Assembly (NCBI GenBank): GCA_035533015.1
Contig: DATLUQ010000026.1
Location: 1 to 37,702, forward strand
Direction of reading: 5' to 3'
Length of the DNA: 37,702 bases
Source of the DNA: Gemmatimonadaceae bacterium
GTDB lineage: Bacteria; Gemmatimonadota; Gemmatimonadetes; Gemmatimonadales; Gemmatimonadaceae
Within the stretch, counting starts at the first letter, position 1; the number at the start of each line of letters is the position of its first letter. Positions 2,084 through 35,734 of the stretch are shown here, piece by piece. The position numbers and the translations under genes are program-made. A model generated the notes under the pieces. That model was not told where the DNA came from and made no database searches. It saw only the letters and a list, made by a program, of their open reading frames with translations.

Positions 2084-3613
2084 GTGATCGCTCGCCGCTC
2101 GGCCTCCCTGGCCGCCGCTTGCGCCCTACTCGCATTCAGCGCCATCCCCGCGCTCGCCCAGAAGGCGGAGAAGCCCGCCTCGGACACCGTTGCCGCGGTG
2201 CCGTCCGAGAGTGCATCCGTGACGCAGCACGTGATCACGCTCAACGGAGAGACCGTGCACTACACGGCCACGGCCGGCAACCTGCTCGTGCGCAACGACT
2301 CGGGCGCGCCGATCGGCAGCTTCTTCTACGTGGCCTACACCAAGGACGGCGCCGACCCGCTCAAGCGTCCGGTGACGTTCCTGTACAACGGCGGACCGGG
2401 GTCGTCCACGATCTGGCTGCACATGGGTTCGGTGGGTCCGCTGCGGGTCGTCACCGACGACGCTGCGTCCACGCCGCCCGCCCCGTACGAACTGAAGGAC
2501 AACCCGTACAGCCTGATCGACAAGAGCGACCTCGTGTTCGTCGACGCCATGGGTACCGGCTTCAGCCAGATCGTGGGCAAGGGCACCGGCAAGGAGTTCT
2601 TCGGCGTGGACGCCGACATCCGGTCGTTCGCCGACTTCATCACCCGCTACGTGACCGTCAACAACCGGTGGAACTCACCCAAGTTCCTGATGGGCGAATC
2701 GTACGGCACGACGCGATCGGCGGGCCTGGCCGATGCGCTGCAGGAGCGCGGCATGCCGCTCAACGGCGTGGTGCTCGTGTCGTCATATTTGAATGCATAT
2801 GTCGATTTCAGCGGGCCGCCCCTGGCGCTCGACCTGCCGTACGAACTGTACCTGCCGACCATGGCGGCCACCGCCTGGTACCACGACAAGCTCTCGCCGA
2901 AGCCCGCGGACCTGGCGGCGTTCCTGGCGCAGGTGCGCGCCTTCGCCCTGGGCGACTACGAGCAGGCGCTGGACAAGGGCTCGCACCTGGGCGCCGCCGA
3001 GCGCGACGCCGTGGTGGCCAAGCTCCACCAGTACACCGGGATCTCGGAGCAGTACTGGCGCGAAGCGAACCTGCGGCTCACCCCCGACCGATTCGAGAAG
3101 GAACTGTTGCGCGACGAACGGCGCACCGTGGGCCGTCTCGATGCCCGGTACGAAGGGATCGATCACGATAATGCCGGCGAGAGTCCCGAATACGACGCCG
3201 CCGACGCCGCCATCAACGGACCCTTCACCACGGCGTTCAACTACTACCTCAAGAACGGCCTCCACTATACGAGCGACCGCCGCTACCTGACCACCAACTA
3301 CGGCGTCGTGGGGCGCAGTTGGGACGACCATCACCACGGCGCGGACATGCTCGATGTGGCCGAAGACCTTCGCGACGCGATGTCCAAGAATCCGCAACTC
3401 AAGGTGTTTTCGGCCAACGGCTATTTCGACTTCGCCACGCCGTTCTTCGAGACGGAATACACCCTGGACCACATGGGGCTCGCCCCGTCGCTGGCCAAGA
3501 ACATCACGTATGGCTACTACCAGTCGGGGCACATGATCTACATGCACACGCCGGCGCTCGCGCAACTCAAGCACGATCTGGCGGCGTTCTACGACTCGAC
3601 GCTGAGCCATTAG
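2084..3613 (+). CDS. Secreted S10 family serine carboxypeptidase
   Basis: A carboxypeptidase of MEROPS family S10 (alpha/beta hydrolase fold), releasing C-terminal residues from peptides. The oxyanion-region signature YNGGPGSS is near residue 103, the nucleophile is S206 in MGESYGTTR, the acid is D449 in GYFDFATP, and the base is H483 in QSGHMIYMH, so the triad is complete. GTG 2084 is chosen because CAGGAG at 2071-2076 is well spaced and a clean signal peptide follows (RR, hydrophobic core, cleavage near ALAQ). An upstream in-frame start at 2003 would only add residues that spoil the signal peptide. About 509 residues, as expected for the family. It stands alone between the radical SAM gene and the cytochrome gene. 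A run of seven AT-rich codons interrupts its codon usage at 2783-2803. Confidence 0.93.
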   Translation: MIARRSASLAAACALLAFSAIPALAQKAEKPASDTVAAVPSESASVTQHVITLNGETVHYTATAGNLLVRNDSGAPIGSFFYVAYTKDGADPLKRPVTFLYNGGPGSSTIWLHMGSVGPLRVVTDDAASTPPAPYELKDNPYSLIDKSDLVFVDAMGTGFSQIVGKGTGKEFFGVDADIRSFADFITRYVTVNNRWNSPKFLMGESYGTTRSAGLADALQERGMPLNGVVLVSSYLNAYVDFSGPPLALDLPYELYLPTMAATAWYHDKLSPKPADLAAFLAQVRAFALGDYEQALDKGSHLGAAERDAVVAKLHQYTGISEQYWREANLRLTPDRFEKELLRDERRTVGRLDARYEGIDHDNAGESPEYDAADAAINGPFTTAFNYYLKNGLHYTSDRRYLTTNYGVVGRSWDDHHHGADMLDVAEDLRDAMSKNPQLKVFSANGYFDFATPFFETEYTLDHMGLAPSLAKNITYGYYQSGHMIYMHTPALAQLKHDLAAFYDSTLSH

Positions 3614-4366: not shown

Positions 4367-6463
4367 TCATCCCTTGCACGCCGGGCCGCCGAACCTCCCG
4401 CCGCCGAAGCCGGGCCCGCCGGCCGGCTCGGGCGGCGCCGGTTGCCGCGGCCAGGTGTTGTCGGAGATATCGAGATCCGGGAACCGGCAGTGCGGATCGA
4501 GCACGATGCGCTCGATCTTGCGCGCGCCGAAGTCGAGCGTCGCCTTGAACGTGCGGCTGCCGTTGAACCACACGTCCACCGGCCAGGTGACGGTGGCCGT
4601 CGAATCATCGATCATCACGGCGTTCCGCATGTGCCGGATGGCCGGGCCCTTGGGTGCGAAGTGGACGTTCAAGACCACGGGCGACGGCATCTGCCCGGCC
4701 TGGTGCACGGTCACCACGGTGCGCCCGGCCGACGTGGTCACGTTCTGGATGGACCCATCCACGGCGTCGGTGGTGAACAGCCAGTAGTACCAGAACCACC
4801 CGAGGTCGCGGTGCAGGGCATTGCTCATGAAGAACGCATAGTCCCACGGTGACGGATGCTTGAACCGCCAGGCGTGAGCGTACTCGCTCATCGCATGCCA
4901 CACGGCGCTGTCGCCCACGATGCCGCCGAGCATGGACAACATCATCGGCGCCTTGCTGTACGCCTGGAAGGAGTACATCGGGCCGCCGTAGTTGGCGTCC
5001 CACATCATCGGAGCTTCGCGTTCGTTGCCGCTCGTCATTCCGTAGCGCTGGCCCGGGCCGTCGAGATCGGCCGGCAGGTGCTGCCGGTCGTCGCGCGACA
5101 GGATGTTCATGTACTGGTTGAACCCTTCGTCCATGAACGGATACCAGGTCTCGTTGGTGCCGAGCGTCATCGGCCACCACTCGTGCCCGGTCTCGTGATC
5201 GGAGGCACCGACGCTCGACATGATGAACATCGGATACTCCATGCCGAGTTCCGGGCCGTCCACCATGGTCATGGTCGGAAAGCTGTAGGGTATCCAGAGT
5301 TTGGAATAGAACTCGAGGGCGTGACGCACGGTGGGGCCCGCGTCGGCGTATGCCGGCGCGTGGCCGGGCAGGTACATGATGTTGATGGGGACGTTCATGC
5401 CCGAGCCGGGGATCACGGCGTGCGCCCCGTCCCACACGAACTGGTCGGACGTGGCCCAGGCGACGTCGGCCGCGGTATCGGCCACGAAGTGCCACACGAG
5501 CCGGTCGCCGGCCGCGGTGGCGCGGCCGGGTCCGAATTCGTCGGGGCTCAGGATGCGGACGGTCGAGTCGGCGGTGAGGGCCTGCGTCAGCCGTTCCCGT
5601 TCGGCGGCCGTCAGCACGTCCTGCGGGTTCTGCAGAATGCCGGTGGCGCCCACGAGCCAGCCCGCCGGGAGATCCAGCTTGACGTCGAAGTGGCCGAAAT
5701 TATTGTAGAATTCTGATGGCCCCAGATACGGGTCGGTATCCCAGCCGCCGTCCCGCAGGTCGTCGAACACGGTCACCCGGGGGTACCACTGACCCACCTG
5801 GTACAGCGTGTCGCCCCACGCGCCCATCCGGATGCCGCGCGTCGGCGCCACCACCTTGGGCACCGTGAAGTGCCAGTCGGCGTCGAGGGCAACGCTGCCG
5901 TGCGCCGGCACCGGCGCGGGCAGGGTGATGGTGGCCACCGTCTGCGACAGATTGAAGGCCGCGAGTTCCACCGGAGGCGCGGCGCCGCCCCGTCCGCCCC
6001 GTCCTCCGCGGCCACGCGCCGGGGCGCCGGGGTTGAGCGCCACCGGCTGTCCGTCCACGCGCAACGCGGTCACCTGCATGCCGTCGGTGATGTCGGTGAC
6101 CTCCTCGGCCCGCGGCACGTTGGGGGCGAACAGGTTCTGATCCAGACGCAACGTGATGGAGTGCATCTCGTTGGGCCCGTTGTTCTGCACCACCACGTGC
6201 TCGTGGCCCGTCACCAACCCCGTGGCCGGGTCGAAGCGGGCGTCGATCGCGTAGTCGGTCCAGAGCTGCCAGTAGTTCCGCCCGGGCCGGCCAGTGGAGT
6301 CGCGGGTGCCGGCAGCGAAGGCGCGCCGGATCATGTCCGTCATCGGGATGTCGTGCTGGATGGCACGGTCTGGATATCTGCTGGTCGTCTGCGCAAAGCC
6401 GGGGGCCGGAAGCGCGGCCAGCGCGCCCAGCACGGCCAGCGCCACGAGAGAGCGAGAGCGCAT
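4367..6463 (-). CDS. Secreted M1 family metallopeptidase
   Basis: A gluzincin peptidase of family M1. The zinc motif is H423-E-T-G-H427 followed after exactly 18 residues by E446 in MDEGFNQYMN; LGMEYPMF upstream corresponds to the GxMEN exopeptidase loop and suggests aminopeptidase activity. An N-terminal signal peptide ends near GFAQ (residue 25). The N-terminal beta domain carries an inserted Gly/Arg-rich loop (RGRGGRGGRGG, near residue 155), and the C-terminus is Gly-rich and ends in PACKG. ATG 6463 is preceded on the minus strand by GAGGA with suitable spacing. Length of 698 residues is normal for bacterial secreted M1 enzymes that lack the long C-terminal ERAP-like domain. Transcribed alone, divergent from the VIT-family gene. 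Confidence 0.92.
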   Translation of the reverse strand: MRSRSLVALAVLGALAALPAPGFAQTTSRYPDRAIQHDIPMTDMIRRAFAAGTRDSTGRPGRNYWQLWTDYAIDARFDPATGLVTGHEHVVVQNNGPNEMHSITLRLDQNLFAPNVPRAEEVTDITDGMQVTALRVDGQPVALNPGAPARGRGGRGGRGGAAPPVELAAFNLSQTVATITLPAPVPAHGSVALDADWHFTVPKVVAPTRGIRMGAWGDTLYQVGQWYPRVTVFDDLRDGGWDTDPYLGPSEFYNNFGHFDVKLDLPAGWLVGATGILQNPQDVLTAAERERLTQALTADSTVRILSPDEFGPGRATAAGDRLVWHFVADTAADVAWATSDQFVWDGAHAVIPGSGMNVPINIMYLPGHAPAYADAGPTVRHALEFYSKLWIPYSFPTMTMVDGPELGMEYPMFIMSSVGASDHETGHEWWPMTLGTNETWYPFMDEGFNQYMNILSRDDRQHLPADLDGPGQRYGMTSGNEREAPMMWDANYGGPMYSFQAYSKAPMMLSMLGGIVGDSAVWHAMSEYAHAWRFKHPSPWDYAFFMSNALHRDLGWFWYYWLFTTDAVDGSIQNVTTSAGRTVVTVHQAGQMPSPVVLNVHFAPKGPAIRHMRNAVMIDDSTATVTWPVDVWFNGSRTFKATLDFGARKIERIVLDPHCRFPDLDISDNTWPRQPAPPEPAGGPGFGGGRFGGPACKG

Positions 6464-13138: not shown

Positions 13139-15406
13139 TCATCGCGCCCGTGCCAGCGCGGTGGCGGTGTTGTTCACCAATGCCGCTTCGGCCATGAGGG
13201 CGTCGGCGATGCGGCCGATCTGGGCGTTCACGTCGCTCCACTCGTTCTGCTCGATCGCCTCGCGGGCGCCCGGCATGGTCTTCACGCCGTACCCGGTGTA
13301 GAAACCCGGCGCGTAGAGCAGGTGCCGGTACCAGGGCCGCTTGGGCAGCCCGTCGAGCGACGTGAGGTCGCGTTCGGACTTGAGCAGTTGCTCGTTGACC
13401 CCGCGCAGCACGGCCTCGGCGGTGTCCGACGTCCGAGTCCAGGAGCCATACGCTTTCTCGAATGCCGCGGCCGCCTGGGTGAGCGTATCCACCGCGTTGA
13501 GCAGCGGGGCGAAGTTGAACTGCGGCGGCGGCACTTCCACGGCGGGCGCCGAGGTGGGGTCTCGCGGGTCGCTCGTGACTGCATAGTCTCCGGCCGCCAC
13601 GGCCCGGTTCGTGGCGCCGATCGTGGCCGCCCGCTCGTCGCGCAGCTGCTCGAGTTCCCGGGTGTAGCGCTGCACGGTCTGCGCGAGGTTGGTGAACACG
13701 AACGGCAGTACGTCGGCGTCGGCCAGGCGCATCACGGCCTTGCCCACGGTTTGCGAAAGCGCGCGCCCGTAGACGAACGACGTATCGCTGAAGTGCGTGT
13801 ACCAGTAAAAATCGTCGTAGATGGAGTGGTAGATGCCGCTGTGGTCCTCGCCGCCGTACCCGAGGTTCAACGACGCGATGCCCAGATGTTGCAGGAAGGG
13901 CGTGTAGTCGGAGCCCGAGCCCAGCGCGCCGATCTGGAGGTCGCCGTTCCCACCGCCGGTGCCGCCGCCGCGTCCCCCGCGCCCGCCAACGGCGAGGCGC
14001 GCCTTGTCTCGCGCCCAGACGCTCACGTGCGACTCCGGATCCGTGACGTCCTTGGCCACGCCGTTGATGAAATCCTCCAGGGAGTGCGAGCCGGAGATGC
14101 CCAGGTAGCCGCGGCCATTGCCGTCGGTGTTGAGATAGGCCACCGCGTGCTGTTGCAACTCGTCCGCGTGCTCTTCGGCCCACTCGGTGGAGCCCAGGAG
14201 GCCGGGCTCCTCGCCGTCCCAGGCGGCGTAGATGATCGTGCGCTTGGGCCGCCAGCCCTGCTTGTACAGCTCGCCCAGCGCGCGGGCCTCTTCCAGTTCG
14301 GCCACCTGTCCGGCGAGCGGATCGGCGGCACCGTTCACCCACGCGTCGTGGTGGTTACCGCGGACGATCCACTGGTCGGCTTCGCTGGTGCCCGGCAGCT
14401 TGGCAATCACGTCGTGGATGGGCTTGATGTCCCAGTTGGACTTCACCACCAGGTGCACCCGGGCCGGGCCAGCGCCCAGCCGGTACGTGATCGGCAGCCC
14501 GCCGCGCCACGACGCCGGCGCGACCGGACCGCCCATCGCCTCGAGCAAAGGCTTCGCGTCGCCGTACGAGATGGGTTGTACGGGGATCTTGGACAGCACC
14601 GTGGATTCGCTGATCGGCAGCCGCTTGGCGTCCTTGGTGGCGCCCCAGCCTGGCGTGAGCGGGTCACCGGTGTAGGTGGGCATGTCTTCGACGCTGCCGC
14701 GCTGCACGCCCTGCGATGGTCGCATCGGGCCGTTGGGGAACACCGTGCCGTCCGCGTATCCGTCGTCCGCCGGATCGGAGTAGATGAGGCAGCCGATGGC
14801 GCCGTGCTCGGCGGCCACCTTCGGCTTGATGCCGCGCCACGAGCCGCCGTACTTGGCGATCACGATCGCGCCCTTCACCGAGATGCCATGCCGCGCCAGC
14901 TCCTCATAGTCGGCGGGCACGCCGTAGTTCACGAATACCAGTGGACCGGTCACGTCGCCGTCGGCGGAGTAGGCGTTGTACGTGGGAAGCTGCTCCGTCT
15001 TCTGCCCCGACGTCGGATCCACGGCCACGGTCGGCTCCTCGAGCCGCGCCGTGTAATGCGTGGGCGCGATCAACTCCACCAGCCGCTGCTTGGGCGTGGG
15101 GAAGAGGACATAGAACGTCTCGATGTGCGCGTCCCATCCCCACGACTTGTACTGCGCCAGGATCCACTCCGCGTTGGCCGAGTCGTAGGGCGAACCCACG
15201 TGGTGGGGGCGCGCGGAGAGCAGCTGCATCGCGGCGCGCATGCGCGCCGGATCGGGAATGGCATCGAACTTGGCCTCCCAATCGCGTTCGATCTGGGACG
15301 ACGCCGCCGTGAAGCCGCGCAGCGGAGGCTCGGGGGCAAAGCGCGCGGGAACGAGGGCCAGTCCGCCGAGCGCGACGAGGAGCGAGGGCGTGAATCGGGA
15401 CATCAT
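13139..15406 (-). CDS. Secreted M28 family peptidase, glutamate carboxypeptidase II-like
   Basis: A zinc aminopeptidase-fold enzyme with the three-domain architecture of glutamate carboxypeptidase II. After a signal peptide there is a peptidase-type N-terminal part, a protease-associated insert (GPLVFVNYGVPADYEELARHG, residues about 150-300), the M28 core with NHHDAWVNGAADP, WDGEEPGLLGS and AYLNTDGNG, and the last zinc histidine in IYHSIYDDFYW; a transferrin-receptor-type dimerisation domain closes the protein. GCPII-like enzymes remove C-terminal Glu or Asp or cleave small peptides. A Gly/Arg-rich insert (VGGRGGRGGGTGGGN) sits between core strands. Two adjacent ATG codons (15406, 15403) begin MMSRFTP; either gives the signal peptide. 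About 755 residues. Confidence 0.92.
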   Translation of the reverse strand: MMSRFTPSLLVALGGLALVPARFAPEPPLRGFTAASSQIERDWEAKFDAIPDPARMRAAMQLLSARPHHVGSPYDSANAEWILAQYKSWGWDAHIETFYVLFPTPKQRLVELIAPTHYTARLEEPTVAVDPTSGQKTEQLPTYNAYSADGDVTGPLVFVNYGVPADYEELARHGISVKGAIVIAKYGGSWRGIKPKVAAEHGAIGCLIYSDPADDGYADGTVFPNGPMRPSQGVQRGSVEDMPTYTGDPLTPGWGATKDAKRLPISESTVLSKIPVQPISYGDAKPLLEAMGGPVAPASWRGGLPITYRLGAGPARVHLVVKSNWDIKPIHDVIAKLPGTSEADQWIVRGNHHDAWVNGAADPLAGQVAELEEARALGELYKQGWRPKRTIIYAAWDGEEPGLLGSTEWAEEHADELQQHAVAYLNTDGNGRGYLGISGSHSLEDFINGVAKDVTDPESHVSVWARDKARLAVGGRGGRGGGTGGGNGDLQIGALGSGSDYTPFLQHLGIASLNLGYGGEDHSGIYHSIYDDFYWYTHFSDTSFVYGRALSQTVGKAVMRLADADVLPFVFTNLAQTVQRYTRELEQLRDERAATIGATNRAVAAGDYAVTSDPRDPTSAPAVEVPPPQFNFAPLLNAVDTLTQAAAAFEKAYGSWTRTSDTAEAVLRGVNEQLLKSERDLTSLDGLPKRPWYRHLLYAPGFYTGYGVKTMPGAREAIEQNEWSDVNAQIGRIADALMAEAALVNNTATALARAR

Positions 15407-15939: not shown

Positions 15940-16419
15940 ATGACCGACTCCGATTCCACCGCGCCGGACAACGCCGGCGTGCACGTACCGCCGCCGCTCA
16001 TCTATCTGACGGCGTTCGCCGTCGGAATGTTCGTGCAGCGCGCCGTGCCCCGCACCCTGTTGCCGTCGGGCGAGGCGCGCTCGGCGGCGGTCGTGCTGGG
16101 CGTGGCGTGGGCCGTGCTCACGGTGTGGACCATGACCTGCTTCCGGCGGGCGCACACGAGCGTCATCCCGGTCAAGCCGACCTCGGCGCTCGTCATCAAG
16201 GGGCCGTTCCGGATCACGCGCAATCCGCTCTATCTGGGCCTCGTGCTGCTCTATGCGGGCGTGTCGCTCTGGCTGAACGCGCTCTGGCCGTTCGTCCTGC
16301 TGCTGCCGCTGATCGTGATCATCCAGACGTACGCGATCGCCCGCGAAGAGCGCTACCTGGAGCGCAAGTTCGGCGACGCGTACCGCGACTACCGGCGTCG
16401 GGTGCGGCGGTGGATCTGA
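15940..16419 (+). CDS. Isoprenylcysteine carboxyl methyltransferase (ICMT/PEMT)-family membrane protein
   Basis: A membrane methyltransferase-like protein. The diagnostic C-terminal half is present: GPFRITRNPLYLGLVLLYAG, then a hydrophobic pair of helices, and AREERYLERKFGDAYRDYRRRVRRW, which together form the SAM-binding part of the ICMT/PEMT fold. Membrane segments lie at about residues 18-38, 50-68, 92-112 and 113-132. Bacterial members are generally uncharacterised; lipid or small-isoprenoid methylation is possible. AAGGAG at 15929-15934 with a five-base spacer fixes ATG 15940. The next gene starts inside its 3' end (GTG 16410), indicating coupled translation. 159 residues. Confidence 0.88.
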   Translation: MTDSDSTAPDNAGVHVPPPLIYLTAFAVGMFVQRAVPRTLLPSGEARSAAVVLGVAWAVLTVWTMTCFRRAHTSVIPVKPTSALVIKGPFRITRNPLYLGLVLLYAGVSLWLNALWPFVLLLPLIVIIQTYAIAREERYLERKFGDAYRDYRRRVRRWI

Positions 16420-16970
16420 CCGCGACCGGCACGCCGCCGGCGGTGGCCCGGTGGGCCCGGCTCGGCCTGCTCGCCGCGCTCGCGCTATATGGAATTGCTT
16501 ATATGCGCGATCCGGGGGGCGGCCACCTGATCGACGGCATCGACCTGGCCATTCACGAGACCGGACATGTGGTGTTCGGGCCGTTCGGCGAGGTCATCCA
16601 GTTTGCCGGAGGGACGCTGTTCCAGTTGATCGTGCCGGCGACGTTTCTCGTGTATTTCCTGCGGTTCGCGCCCACGCGCGACGAGTTCGGGGCCGCCGTG
16701 ACGCTCTGGTGGATGGCGATCAATCTCTGGAACATCGCCGTGTACGCCGGCGACGCGCGGACGCAGCGGCTGCCGCTGGTGGGCGGCGGGGAGCACGACT
16801 GGGCGTACCTGCTCGGGCGCGCCGGGTGGCTGTCCTACGACACGCGGGTGGCGGCCTTGTTTCACGCGCTGGGGGTGGTGGCGTTCGTGGTCGCGCTGTG
16901 GTGGGGGTTCCAGGCGGCACGGCGTCTGCCGGCGGCGGCCGAGGTGGACGACGCCGGCGCCGAGCAGTAA
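16410..16970 (+). CDS. Integral membrane protein with HExxH motif (possible M50-like protease)
   Basis: A 186-residue membrane protein with about four hydrophobic segments. Near residue 48 it carries IHETGHVVFGPFGE, a zincin HExxH motif placed in front of a hydrophobic stretch with GG (FAGGTLFQLIVPATFLVYF), as in site-2-protease (M50) proteins. Downstream, NLWNIAVYAGDARTQ contains Asn and Asp in roughly the place where M50 enzymes have their third metal ligand. The match is partial and the protein may be a non-peptidase. GTG 16410 overlaps the ICMT gene by ten bases. It ends nine bases before the amidohydrolase gene. Codons 26-32 (16485-16505) are unusually AT-rich. Confidence 0.6.
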   Translation: MDLTATGTPPAVARWARLGLLAALALYGIAYMRDPGGGHLIDGIDLAIHETGHVVFGPFGEVIQFAGGTLFQLIVPATFLVYFLRFAPTRDEFGAAVTLWWMAINLWNIAVYAGDARTQRLPLVGGGEHDWAYLLGRAGWLSYDTRVAALFHALGVVAFVVALWWGFQAARRLPAAAEVDDAGAEQ

Positions 16971-16979
16971 GCTCCCGGC

Positions 16980-18416
16980 ATGCCCAACCATTCCCGGTTC
17001 CGATTCGCGTGCGCCATGGCTGGCGCCGCCATGCTGCTGCCGGCCGCCCTCGCGGCGCAGCGCCCCACGCTGGCGCCGGCCGTGCGCCAGTTCGTCGCGG
17101 TGGACACCACCGTCGTCGCGCTCACCCACGTGCGGGTGATCGACGGCACCGGCGCGCCGGCCCGCGACGACCAGACCCTGATCCTCCGCGACGGCCAGAT
17201 CGCGGCGATGGGTCCCGCGGGCTCGGTGGCCGTGCCGGCCGGCGCCCAGGTGATGGATCTCACCGGCAAGTCGGTGATCCCCGGGCTCGTCATGATGCAC
17301 GAGCACCTGTTCTACCCCACCGGCCCCGGCGTATATGGAAATGAATATGTGAGCTTCCCGCGCCTGTACCTGGCCGGCGGGGTGACGTCCATGCGCACCA
17401 CGGGCGACGTGGGCGGCTACGGCGACCTGCGGATGGCGGCGGCGATCAAGGCCGGCGAGCAGCCCGGACCGTGGATCGACGCCACCGCGCCCTACGTCCA
17501 GGGGCCGTCGCCCTTCGACCAGATGTACGCCCTCAAGGACTCCGCCGACGCGCGCCGCTACGTGAACTTCTGGGCCGACGCCGGCGCCACGTCGTTCAAG
17601 GCGTACATGAACATCACGCGCCCCGAGCTGGCGGTGGCGATCGATGCCGCCCACAAGCGCGGGCTCAAGATCACCGGCCACCTCTGTTCGGTGACCTATC
17701 GCGAGGCGGCCGATCTCGGCATCGACGATCTCGAGCACGGCTTCTTCGTGTCCACCGACTTCGTGAAGGACAAGCAGCCCGATGTGTGTCCGGGGCAGGC
17801 GGCCGGCATGGCCGCGCTGGCCGCCGTCGACTCGAGTAGCCCGGCGTTCAAGTCGCTGGTCCAGGATCTGGTGCGGCATCACGTGGCCGTCACCTCCACG
17901 CTCACCGTCTTCCAGACGTTCACGCCCGGCCAACCCATGCCACCCGGCCTGGACGTGCTCGATCCGATACTCAAAGCGCAGTTCGAGCAGTATCACGCGC
18001 GCGTCGAGCGCAACCCGAACTCGATCTACCCGAAGCTGTTCGCCGATGACCGGGCGATGGAGTTGGCCTTCGTGCACGCCGGCGGGATGCTGCTCGCCGG
18101 CACCGATCCGACGGGCGGGGGCGGGGTGATCCCCGGCTACTCCGACCAGCGCCAGGCCGAATTGCTGGTGGGCAGCGGGTTCACGCCGCTCGAGGCGATC
18201 AAGATCTGCACGCTGAACGGCGCCACATACCTCGGACGCGCCGACCGCATCGGATCGCTGGCCGTAGGCAAGCAGGCGGACCTCGTGGTGATCAACGGCA
18301 ACCCCGCGGCGAACATCGACGACATCGAGAAGGTCGCGCTGGTGTTCAAGCAGGGCATCGGGTACGACCCGCAGAAGCTGATCGACTCGGTGAAGGGTAG
18401 GGTGGGGCTGTATTGA
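16980..18416 (+). CDS. Secreted amidohydrolase (imidazolonepropionase-like)
   Basis: A metal-dependent hydrolase of the amidohydrolase superfamily with a signal peptide (cleavage near LAAQ). The metal site is complete: H107-E-H109 after PGLVMMHEHLF, the probable carboxylated K207 in TSFKAYMN, H234 in ITGHL, H253 in LEHGFF and D376 in AGTDPTG. A terminal beta sandwich with GSLAVGKQADLVVINGNP is standard. Secreted members often act on peptide-like or cyclic amide substrates such as prolidase-type dipeptides; the exact substrate is not readable. Length of 478 residues is typical. It begins nine bases after the HExxH membrane gene with no evident Shine-Dalgarno site, so read-through from that operon is likely. 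Codons at 17331-17351 form an AT-rich island. Confidence 0.9.
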   Translation: MPNHSRFRFACAMAGAAMLLPAALAAQRPTLAPAVRQFVAVDTTVVALTHVRVIDGTGAPARDDQTLILRDGQIAAMGPAGSVAVPAGAQVMDLTGKSVIPGLVMMHEHLFYPTGPGVYGNEYVSFPRLYLAGGVTSMRTTGDVGGYGDLRMAAAIKAGEQPGPWIDATAPYVQGPSPFDQMYALKDSADARRYVNFWADAGATSFKAYMNITRPELAVAIDAAHKRGLKITGHLCSVTYREAADLGIDDLEHGFFVSTDFVKDKQPDVCPGQAAGMAALAAVDSSSPAFKSLVQDLVRHHVAVTSTLTVFQTFTPGQPMPPGLDVLDPILKAQFEQYHARVERNPNSIYPKLFADDRAMELAFVHAGGMLLAGTDPTGGGGVIPGYSDQRQAELLVGSGFTPLEAIKICTLNGATYLGRADRIGSLAVGKQADLVVINGNPAANIDDIEKVALVFKQGIGYDPQKLIDSVKGRVGLY

Positions 18417-32548: not shown

Positions 32549-32644
32549 GGGCATTCGGCCCGAAAAGGCTGGCGCCAATACGTACCGCGCACCAGCTTTT
32601 GAACGCGAATCCAGATGCTCCGTCCCACGCTCTCGAGGTCCGCC

Positions 32645-35600
32645 ATGAGGCGCATACCGCTCCGCTCGCTCGTCCCGGCACTCGCTCTCCTCGCGCTCGC
32701 CGCGCCGGCCCAACCGGCCGCCGCCCAGGGCGAACTGCACGGCATCGTGCCGGGGCGCGATCCCCGCCAGCCCATCGACTCGGCGTACACCGCGAGGATC
32801 GCGGAGTACACCACCGAGCCGTTCTTCAGCTCGCCGCTGGTGAACTACCTGCCGGCGTCGAAGACCGTCCCGACGCCGATGGCCGAGCTCGGCGACATCG
32901 CCGGCGCCAGGGACAACCTGCCGTACTCGTCGCAGGTGTACGCGTACATGCGCATGCTCGCCAAGGCGAGCCCGCGCGTGCGCGTCTGGACCATCGGGCA
33001 CACCGAGGAGGGACGCGAGATGATCGCCGTGGGTGTGGCCTCGGAAGCCGTCTGGAAGAACCTCGACGAGAACCGGGCCAATCTCGCCAAGCTCGCCGAT
33101 CCGCGGACGATCGGCATGAACGACGCGGCCGCCAAGCAGCTCATCCCACGCACCGTGCCCGTCTACTACATCACCGGCACCATCCACTCCACGGAATCGG
33201 GCGCGCCCACGGCGCTCATGGAACTGGCCTACCGGCTGGCCGTGGACGAGAGCCCGTACATCGCCAACATCCGCGACCATCTTATTACACTAATAACACC
33301 GATCGTCGAGGTGGACGGCCGCGATCGCGAGGTGGATCTCGTCCGCTGGCACATGGCGCATCCGGGCGAGACCCCGCCGCCCCTCATCTACTGGGGCCAC
33401 TACGTCGCCCACGACAACAACCGCGACGCCATGGACGCCAGCCTCGATCTCACGCAGAACGTGCTCAACACGTACGTGGGCTGGAATGCGCAGGTGCTGC
33501 ACGACCTGCACGAGTCGGTGCCGTACCTGTACGACAACACGATCGGCGACGGCCCGTACAACGCCTGGATCGACCCGCTGCTCGCCAACGAATGGCAGAT
33601 GATCGGCTGGAACAACGTCCAGGAGATGACGCGCTTCGGCATGCCCGGCGTGTTCGCGCACGGCGACTTCGACACCTGGTCGCCCGGCTACCTGATGTTC
33701 ATCGCCGCCATGCACAACGGCATCAGCCGCCTCTACGAGACGTTCGGCAACGGCGGCACGGCCGAGACGCTCGAACGCACGTTGTCCCCGAGCGAGACCG
33801 AGAAGACGTGGTACCGCCAGGATCCGCCGCTGCCGCGCGTGATGTGGTCGCTGCGCGACAACAACAACTACGAAGAGACGGGCCTGCTCGTGTCGCTCGA
33901 GTACTTCGCCAACAACCGGCAGCTCTTCCTCGAGAACTTCTATACCAAGGCCAAGCGGTCCATCGAGAAGGCGACCACCGAGGGCCCGGCGGCCTACGTG
34001 CTGCCGGCCGACGATCCACGCCTCGGCTCGCAGGCCGACCTGCTGCACGTGATGCAGCGGCAGCACGTGGAGATCTCGCGCGCCACGGAGCCGTTCACCG
34101 TGCAGGTGCCGGTGAAACGGGCGGCCGGCAACGGCCGCGGGGGCCGCGGGGGTGATGCGAACGCGCCGGCGCCCGGCTCGGCCGCCGACACGGCCGTGCA
34201 ACCCAAGCCCATTCCCACCGAGCCGCGCACCTTCCCGGCGGGCAGCTACATCATCCGCATGGACCAGCCGTACTCGCGCATCGCCGATGCGCTGCTCGAC
34301 CATCAGTTCTGGTCGCCCAACGACCCGCAGAAGCATCCGTACGACGATACGGGGTGGAGCTTTCCCGAGGGGTTCGACGTCGAGTGCGTGCGCGTGGTGG
34401 ACACGGCGGTGCTCAAGGCGCCGATGACCAAGGTGACCGGCGACATCGTGGCGCCGGGCGGCGTGAACGGAACGGGAAGCGTGTACGCCATCGAGAACAA
34501 CGGCGACAACGCGCTGACCACCCTGCGCTATCGGTTCAAGGACGCCGACTTCCAGGCGGCCGAAGACACGTTCAGCGCCGGCGGCCACCACTTCGCGCGC
34601 GGGTCGTATCTGGTGAGCGGTCTGGCGCACGACGATCTCGACAAGGCCGGCAAGGAACTCGGCGTCGAAGCGTATGCGTTGGCGTCGGCGCCGAGCGTGA
34701 AGACCCATCCGCTGCGGGCGGCGCGCATCGCCATCCTGCACACCTGGCAGGGCACGCAGACCGAAGGGTGGTGGCGGCTGGCGTTCGACAAGCAGCACGT
34801 GCCGTACGAGTACATCAGCACGCAGGACGTGGCGAAGATCGCGGACCTCAATGCCAAGTACGACGTGATCGTCTTCCCGCCGGCTGGCGGCAACGCGATG
34901 TCGATCATCAACGGGATGCCGATGTGGCGGAACCCGATGCCGTGGAAGCAGAGCCCCGAGACGCCGAACATCGGCACCTGGGCGCAGACCGACGACATCC
35001 GCCCCGGGCTCGGCTGGGACGGGTTGCAGCATCTCGAGGATTTCGTGCAGAAGGGCGGGCTGTTGATCACGGCCGTCAACACGGCCGATTTCGCCATCCA
35101 GATGGGAATCACGAACGGCGTGAGCAACAGCCGGCCGCGCGGGCAGGAAGTGGTGGGCAGTCTCCTGCGCACGCGGATCGTGGATGGCGCGAGTCCCATC
35201 CTGTATGGCATCAGGGACAGCCTGGCCGTCTACAGCGACGACGGGGAGACGTTCGGCGTGAGCAACATGGCGGGCGGCCGCGGCGGGTTCGGCGGGCGGG
35301 GTGGCGGTGGCGGCGCGACGCGCGAGACGGGGCGCGGCACGGTCGACGACCAGGAGAGCGTGCAGGGCCGTCCGGCGCTGACGCCGCAGTTCGAGGCGCC
35401 CATCCGGCCGCGGGTGCAACCGTGGCAGGCGCAGCCGATCACCGATGAGCAGCTGCGCAACCCGCTCGCCATCATTCCGCCCGACCAGCGGCCGCGCGTC
35501 GTGCTCCGCTACACCGACCAGCGCGACCTGCTGGTGTCGGGGTTGCTGGACGGCGGCAGCGACATCGCGCAGCGGGCGATGGTCGTGGACGCGCCGCTGG

Positions 35601-35734
35601 GCAAGGGGCACGTCGTGATGTTCGCCAACAACCCCGTCTATCGTGGCGAGACGATCGGAGCGTACGCGCTGGTGTTCAACGCGATCATGAATTGGGACAA
35701 CCTGAACGCGGGGCGGGTGCTGGACCAGCGGTAG
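32645..35734 (+). CDS. Secreted M14 family zinc carboxypeptidase
   Basis: A 1029-residue metallocarboxypeptidase. A signal peptide (cleavage near AAAQG) is followed by the M14 domain: IGHTEEGREMIAVGV, the zinc pair H181-x-x-E184 in GTIHSTESGAP, VDGRDREVDLVRWH, and the third ligand in LHDLHESVPYLYD. The C-terminal half is a large non-catalytic region with a glutamine-amidotransferase-like stretch (KYDVIVFPPAGGN) and Gly/Arg-rich linkers (GNGRGGRGGDAN near residue 500 and GGRGGFGGRGGGGG near 880). Proteins of this size and layout are common in Gemmatimonadota and related groups. GAGG at 32635-32638 supports ATG 32645; the frame begins earlier at 32615 without signal features. A cluster of AT-rich codons sits at 33278-33298. 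Confidence 0.92.
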   Translation: MRRIPLRSLVPALALLALAAPAQPAAAQGELHGIVPGRDPRQPIDSAYTARIAEYTTEPFFSSPLVNYLPASKTVPTPMAELGDIAGARDNLPYSSQVYAYMRMLAKASPRVRVWTIGHTEEGREMIAVGVASEAVWKNLDENRANLAKLADPRTIGMNDAAAKQLIPRTVPVYYITGTIHSTESGAPTALMELAYRLAVDESPYIANIRDHLITLITPIVEVDGRDREVDLVRWHMAHPGETPPPLIYWGHYVAHDNNRDAMDASLDLTQNVLNTYVGWNAQVLHDLHESVPYLYDNTIGDGPYNAWIDPLLANEWQMIGWNNVQEMTRFGMPGVFAHGDFDTWSPGYLMFIAAMHNGISRLYETFGNGGTAETLERTLSPSETEKTWYRQDPPLPRVMWSLRDNNNYEETGLLVSLEYFANNRQLFLENFYTKAKRSIEKATTEGPAAYVLPADDPRLGSQADLLHVMQRQHVEISRATEPFTVQVPVKRAAGNGRGGRGGDANAPAPGSAADTAVQPKPIPTEPRTFPAGSYIIRMDQPYSRIADALLDHQFWSPNDPQKHPYDDTGWSFPEGFDVECVRVVDTAVLKAPMTKVTGDIVAPGGVNGTGSVYAIENNGDNALTTLRYRFKDADFQAAEDTFSAGGHHFARGSYLVSGLAHDDLDKAGKELGVEAYALASAPSVKTHPLRAARIAILHTWQGTQTEGWWRLAFDKQHVPYEYISTQDVAKIADLNAKYDVIVFPPAGGNAMSIINGMPMWRNPMPWKQSPETPNIGTWAQTDDIRPGLGWDGLQHLEDFVQKGGLLITAVNTADFAIQMGITNGVSNSRPRGQEVVGSLLRTRIVDGASPILYGIRDSLAVYSDDGETFGVSNMAGGRGGFGGRGGGGGATRETGRGTVDDQESVQGRPALTPQFEAPIRPRVQPWQAQPITDEQLRNPLAIIPPDQRPRVVLRYTDQRDLLVSGLLDGGSDIAQRAMVVDAPLGKGHVVMFANNPVYRGETIGAYALVFNAIMNWDNLNAGRVLDQR

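Follow-up and report, generated by a model that had tools for sequence, protein, structure and literature searches.

Islands of AT-ending codons in a Gemmatimonadaceae genome as copies of a predicted dyad-symmetric 18-bp operator

Why do three genes of a GC-rich bacterium each turn to AT-ending codons over a stretch of about seven codons? The question arises from a window of 37,702 nucleotides, which is one entire contig of a Gemmatimonadaceae draft genome (G000). A preliminary description of this DNA reported AT-rich codon islands at positions 2783-2803, 16485-16505, and 17331-17351, and all three are found there, in frame with their genes (Table 1). The patches are real, although A/T-ending codons account for 5, 6, and 6 of the seven codons rather than for all of them. 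Statistics were computed on 1.09 Mb of the 3.03 Mb draft (36%; 66 contigs), which has a GC3 of 0.88, with genes called by a simple, crude codon-usage caller. One stretch of the assembly, C5:1-2217, is without readable bases (GC 0, reads as N, either masked or withheld).

Islands of this kind are far commoner than codon usage predicts. In synonymous shuffles, which hold the amino acids and the codon usage of each gene constant, seven-codon windows with at least six AT-ending third positions (AT3) are expected 7.8 times (sd 3.4) in the 1.09 Mb, and 39 are observed, an excess of about fivefold. Windows with AT3 at all seven positions number 7 against 0.1 expected. A stricter shuffle that also preserves the dinucleotides at codon boundaries, and is conservative because it mixes poorly, gives 38 against 13.4 at the six-of-seven threshold. 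The amino-acid make-up of the real islands is about that of shuffled islands, which indicates that the patches arise by synonymous choice. Between lags of 1 and 6 codons the autocorrelation of AT3 is positive, and by lag 7 it has disappeared, so the islands are discrete elements of ~20 nt. No such excess is present in GC-matched controls, either GC-rich gammaproteobacteria (22 vs 22.9) or neighbouring Gemmatimonadota genera (113 vs 110); these controls replaced G171 and G184, whose GC3 of 0.96-0.99 is too extreme to compare.

When motifs are sought de novo in the islands, a single dyad-symmetric motif of 18 bp emerges, (y)ATWWGNRWWYNCWWAT(r), so that building a motif from AT-rich coding windows, as the preliminary description had proposed, recovers one palindrome from the 1.09 Mb. 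The motif likelihood on the islands is ~2x that on shuffled islands, and when both strands are allowed the consensus is palindromic. In the symmetric matrix, A (0.92) and T (0.97) mark the outer positions of both arms, W W G N R is more weakly specified, and the centre is an A/T pair; AT enrichment ends at the edge of the 18-bp core. At 14 bits this matrix has 99 matches, whereas mirrored column-permuted controls average 12.7, and at 16 bits it has 65 matches in coding sequence against 2.0 in synonymous shuffles. Since it was fitted to the same data, a second matrix was trained on two contigs only. In the genes of held-out contigs the cross-validation finds 41 sites against 2.0±1.2, and the top three matches of the held-out-trained matrix in the window are the three reported islands. 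A direct search for enriched k-mers and dyads against synonymous shuffles was abandoned, as codon-context effects drowned the signal. These effects are strong in the coding sequence of this genome (CGAGTTG occurs 227 times against 56 expected, and CGCTGCTC 259 times against 80 expected by synonymous shuffle), which suggests that codon choice depends strongly on neighbouring sequence.

The palindrome accounts for the excess of islands completely. Those with AT3 at six or more of seven positions that contain the motif number 33 against 0.1 expected, while those without it number 5 against 7.7, and at five or more of seven positions 110 against 107. One palindromic DNA motif explains the entire island excess, and the islands can thus be regarded as one predicted binding-site family. 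Rare-codon clusters in genes are, in general, local runs of rare synonymous codons; the excess here is unlike them in being fully explained by one DNA motif. The common codon layout noted earlier for the three islands is likewise real, but it is no codon pattern as such: it arises where a palindrome in the DNA is read in a single codon phase. Complementarity between the motif arms equals that of shuffled arms, is lower at the centre, and does not go beyond what the matrix itself gives. An RNA or DNA hairpin element was rejected because the arms do not covary to stay complementary, and symmetry without such complementarity points to a protein dimer. A dyad-symmetric consensus of 14-20 bp with selection on the motif positions is expected of a dimeric operator, and the predicted sites, with their 18 bp, display this.

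Table 1. Host genes of the three islands and predicted palindromic sites in the window. Site scores are from a matrix trained exclusively on other contigs, with the window held out.
Feature	Positions	Strand	Sequence	Score or match
Serine carboxypeptidase (S10) gene, hosts first island	2084-3613	+		Pfam Peptidase_S10 PF00450, E 7e-12
Uncharacterised membrane-protein ORF with HETGH motif, hosts second island	16410-16970	+		without Pfam match
Amidohydrolase gene, hosts third island	16980-18416	+		Pfam PF01979
Site in S10 peptidase gene	2784-2801		CATATTTGAATGCATATG	19.8 bits, rank 3 in window
Site in membrane-protein ORF (16410-16970)	16486-16503		TATATGGAATTGCTTATA	25.0 bits, rank 1 in window
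Site in amidohydrolase gene (16980-18416)	17332-17349		TATATGGAAATGAATATG	22.7 bits, rank 2 in window
Weaker copy in M1-peptidase-like gene (4367-6463, -)	5701-5718		TATTGTAGAATTCTGATG	16.2 bits
Weaker copy in M14-peptidase gene (32615-35734, +)	33278-33295		CATCTTATTACACTAATA	15.2 bits
Marginal copy in M28-peptidase/TFR-dimer gene (13139-15406, -)	13447-13464		CATACGCTTTCTCGAATG	13.5 bits

Synonymous shuffling of the window genes leaves no match of at least 16 bits. The weaker copy in the M14-peptidase gene overlaps an island with AT3 at all seven positions (peptide HLITLIT). The marginal copy in the M28-peptidase/TFR-dimer gene rises from its held-out score to 17.2 bits with the symmetric all-data matrix, and may be a chance match.

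The predicted sites are spread over the genome at large. In the 1.09 Mb, predicted sites exceed expectation by about 80; the whole chromosome would have about 200 copies, at a density of about one site per 14 kb. Every large contig sampled carries sites, at positions that are roughly random as far as can be read from a 66-contig assembly in which ori and ter are not placeable; gaps between sites are random or slightly even, and regular spacing is unsupported. The sites occupy all three codon phases (47/19/17) as well as intergenic DNA. Phase 1 is favoured, with 47 of 80 coding sites, whereas chance sites favour phase 0, and this preference fits sites built at wobble positions. Among the sites of at least 18 bits, 37 of 39 are intragenic, with a mild preference for mid-gene and no concentration near gene starts. 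A minority of sites is intergenic, some of them upstream of a gene, and neither a common regulator nor a common neighbour function was found beside them.

Comparison between species shows what is retained. Among named records, two metagenome-assembled genomes of soil Gemmatimonadota are nearest, REEB322 (82% identity) and REEB316 (84%); around the amidohydrolase island they are identical in sequence to G001 and G002, respectively. Three sister genomes have the peptide VYGNEY at this island, exactly or with little change. In G001/REEB322 the site reads TATATGGAAACGAGTATG, with two synonymous changes, and scores 19.8 bits (p=0.001 vs random synonymous codons); the orthologs in G002 and G003 use GC-ending codons and lack the site despite a near-identical peptide. 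The G003 ortholog of the membrane-protein ORF also has GC-ending codons at the site position. Within the genus, the S10 peptidase gene has only distant relatives (best 47% identity).

Of 27 orthologous sites compared, G001 has 6 in intact form, scoring 16-23 bits (each p<=0.0015 vs random synonymous codons); the other 21 are not kept, and most of these are plainly GC-coded. Further intact copies are found in G002, one identical over 18 bases, and in G003. AT-ending codons are retained at 37 of 104 positions within sites (36%) against 13 of 139 in the flanks (9%). Neither outcome that the preliminary description named as refuting has occurred: the islands exceed their number in shuffled genes, and synonymous conservation is present for some sites. 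The low retention in the flanks means that synonymous positions are otherwise near saturation. Changes inside retained sites fall mostly at weakly constrained positions: it is the motif bases that are kept, not rare codons as such. In g20, another motif-rich genus of the family, G178 and G145 show weak conservation of sites (AT3 retention 0.53 vs 0.36). Taken with the sites missing from G001, this indicates that any single site is dispensable. Sites tend to be present or absent as whole units between species, and in relatives the peptides remain aligned across them, with no insertion at the sites.

In the explanation we favour, each island would be a copy of the dyad-symmetric 18-bp operator, bound by a homodimeric DNA-binding protein. 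The chromosome would carry its ~200 copies mainly within genes, each assembled from synonymous codons with the amino acids untouched. In a GC-rich genome, an operator built in this way appears as a patch of six to seven AT-ending codons. That the islands form a family of protein-binding sites under selection is, from the sequence statistics, very probable, and binding by a protein dimer is inferred from the motif symmetry. Of the mechanisms first suggested for the islands, that of an intragenic site for a DNA-binding or nucleoid protein is the one supported: the motif explains the excess, is present in three phases and in intergenic DNA, and is in part retained synonymously. The mid-gene sites, their roughly random spread, and their turnover between species point to a chromosome-wide rather than a local transcription role. 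Like Noc, SlmA, MatP, or CdbA, the protein might be nucleoid-associated, act in nucleoid occlusion, or organise the chromosome. A chromosome-organising role is slightly favoured. As a whole, a chromosome-wide operator family for a homodimeric, chromosome-organising protein is the best explanation and a fairly probable one.

MatP binds as a dimer to the palindromic site matS and organises one domain of the chromosome, and a ParB dimer reads the 16-bp palindrome parS. The sites described here resemble matS in being palindromic and presumably dimer-bound. A MatP/matS system was rejected: no MatP relative (PF06303) was found in 13 genomes by a search that detected the E. coli positive control, and the sites are not confined to one region. 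ParB/parS was rejected because the motif differs from parS, TGTTNCACGTGNAACA, and a separate parS-like site exists, one per genome of the genus (perfect in G001 and G002, with one mismatch in G003 and in G000, where it lies at C12:28371-28386). No second ParB-family protein of the Noc type was found in G001, G002, G003, G145, or G178, each of which has one ParB_N match; a single ParB in these motif-rich genomes argues against a Noc paralog, and membership of the Noc/NBS system was rejected, there being no second ParB besides the chromosomal one. The G000 assembly has no ParB_N protein, though its parS-like site is present and three genus mates have ParB; the protein is probably missing through an assembly gap.

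Noc of Bacillus subtilis has ~70 binding sites (NBS) and SlmA of E. coli 24-52 (SBS), which are short, dispersed palindromes, non-uniformly distributed, that couple nucleoid position to division (PMC4726725). Sites of a Noc system would be expected to be missing around the terminus. The sites described here are likewise short, palindromic, and dispersed over the chromosome; they differ in their number (~200), and perhaps in their spread, which looks uniform as far as the fragmented genome shows. CdbA of Myxococcus xanthus, a c-di-GMP-binding nucleoid-associated protein of the ribbon-helix-helix type, has 569 ChIP-seq peaks, most within structural genes; its binding has little effect on transcription, and its motif is a direct repeat with 4-bp separation (PMC7156744). 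The likeness to CdbA lies in the high-GC host and in hundreds of sequence-specific sites, here predicted, over the whole chromosome and mostly in genes; the Gemmatimonadaceae motif, by contrast, is an inverted repeat.

The most serious alternative assigns the motif to a global transcription factor as its operator; the copies inside genes would then act locally, as roadblocks or as antisense or alternative promoters, or serve as decoys. A symmetric operator of 16-18 bp is typical of HTH dimers, the intergenic minority includes sites upstream of genes, and intragenic sites are commonplace for bacterial transcription factors (PMC6397444). Many of those intragenic sites are ascribed to chance (PMC6397444), whereas the sites described here stand far above the synonymous-codon null and some are conserved. 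Nearly all strong sites lie inside genes and away from gene starts, and the intergenic ones share no neighbour function, which makes this reading rather unlikely. Internal or antisense promoters, an explanation offered in the preliminary description, would account for the AT-rich, TAT-containing words, which look like -10 elements. Neither the dyad symmetry nor the confinement of AT enrichment to the 18-bp core is expected of them, and a scan for sigma-70-like sites (-35/-10 hexamers 16-18 nt apart, other promoter types lying outside the scan) found none around the three islands; a promoter function is now hardly credible.

Programmed slow translation, also suggested at the outset, holds that clustered rare codons pause ribosomes. 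AT-ending codons are indeed the rare ones here, and the shuffled-like amino-acid composition of the islands is compatible with such a function. It would nevertheless require palindrome-free islands to be in excess, which they are not, and it fits neither the occurrence of sites in every codon phase and in intergenic DNA nor the retention of motif bases rather than rare codons; we consider it very improbable. A recognition site for recombination, integration, or DNA modification, enriched through a mobile or defence system, would suit the patchy occurrence of the motif within the family. The motif is degenerate, however, relatives show no insertions at the sites, and synonymous enrichment within host genes suggests use by the host, so that this origin too is improbable.

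If the chromosome-wide operator reading holds, certain Gemmatimonadaceae might run an undescribed chromosome-organising or nucleoid-occlusion system, in which a protein unrelated to Noc and MatP docks at ~200 palindromic sites that are written into genes through synonymous codons and gained or lost whole between species; this wider proposition is tentative. A literature search found no description of such sites in Gemmatimonadota, nor of bacterial intragenic sites held by synonymous codons. The sites are a clean bacterial case of a DNA-level code overlaid on the protein code, with selection strong enough to force a run of six or seven rare codons on ordinary genes. Provided that the cognate protein organises the nucleoid, they would also open a way to study how chromosomes are organised in this phylum, on which the literature search found nothing described. 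The high GC content makes the family visible in the sequence by itself, and the approach, third-position AT islands followed by motif discovery against synonymous shuffles, is usable on any GC-rich genome and needs no experiments.

The distribution of the motif was surveyed in 249 genomes of the phylum by counting an IUPAC form of it and a reversed-pattern control over whole genomes. The control exchanges AT for TA, which lowers its counts, and genomes without the system often have a ratio of 1-3; only ratios far above this were accepted as evidence of the site family. Motif/control counts are 80/8 in G000, 86/7 in G001, 46/4 in G003, and 255/16 and 224/15 in genus g20, and many relatives are near background. 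G178, of genus g20, has an island excess of its own (20 vs 4.1) together with matrix matches. The consensus differs slightly by genus, being ATAWGNAATTNCWTAT in G000 and close to ATTAGARATYTCTAAT in g20; such drift is as expected if the specificity of a DNA-binding protein had diverged slightly.

G067 (genus g10; 71/5) was rejected as a carrier, its count being due to a dispersed repeat. This repeat, of type ATTGAGGATTGGGAAT / ATTCCCAATCCTCAAT, mimics the IUPAC motif in dozens of copies, often in close pairs (for example C1:34693-34734, C3:197053-197183, and C4:212067-212108), and resembles a family of interspersed palindromic repeats. Intermediate counts occur in G242 (64/7), G050 (50/0), G220 (70/7), and G192 (77/11), in which either the site family or unrelated repeats may be present. 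The most symmetric g20 site is a near-perfect palindrome, GATTAGAGCACTCTAATC, in intergenic DNA near comM of G178 (L128 15429-15446, contig C13), and could control the cognate gene as its operator or be a site of some special kind.
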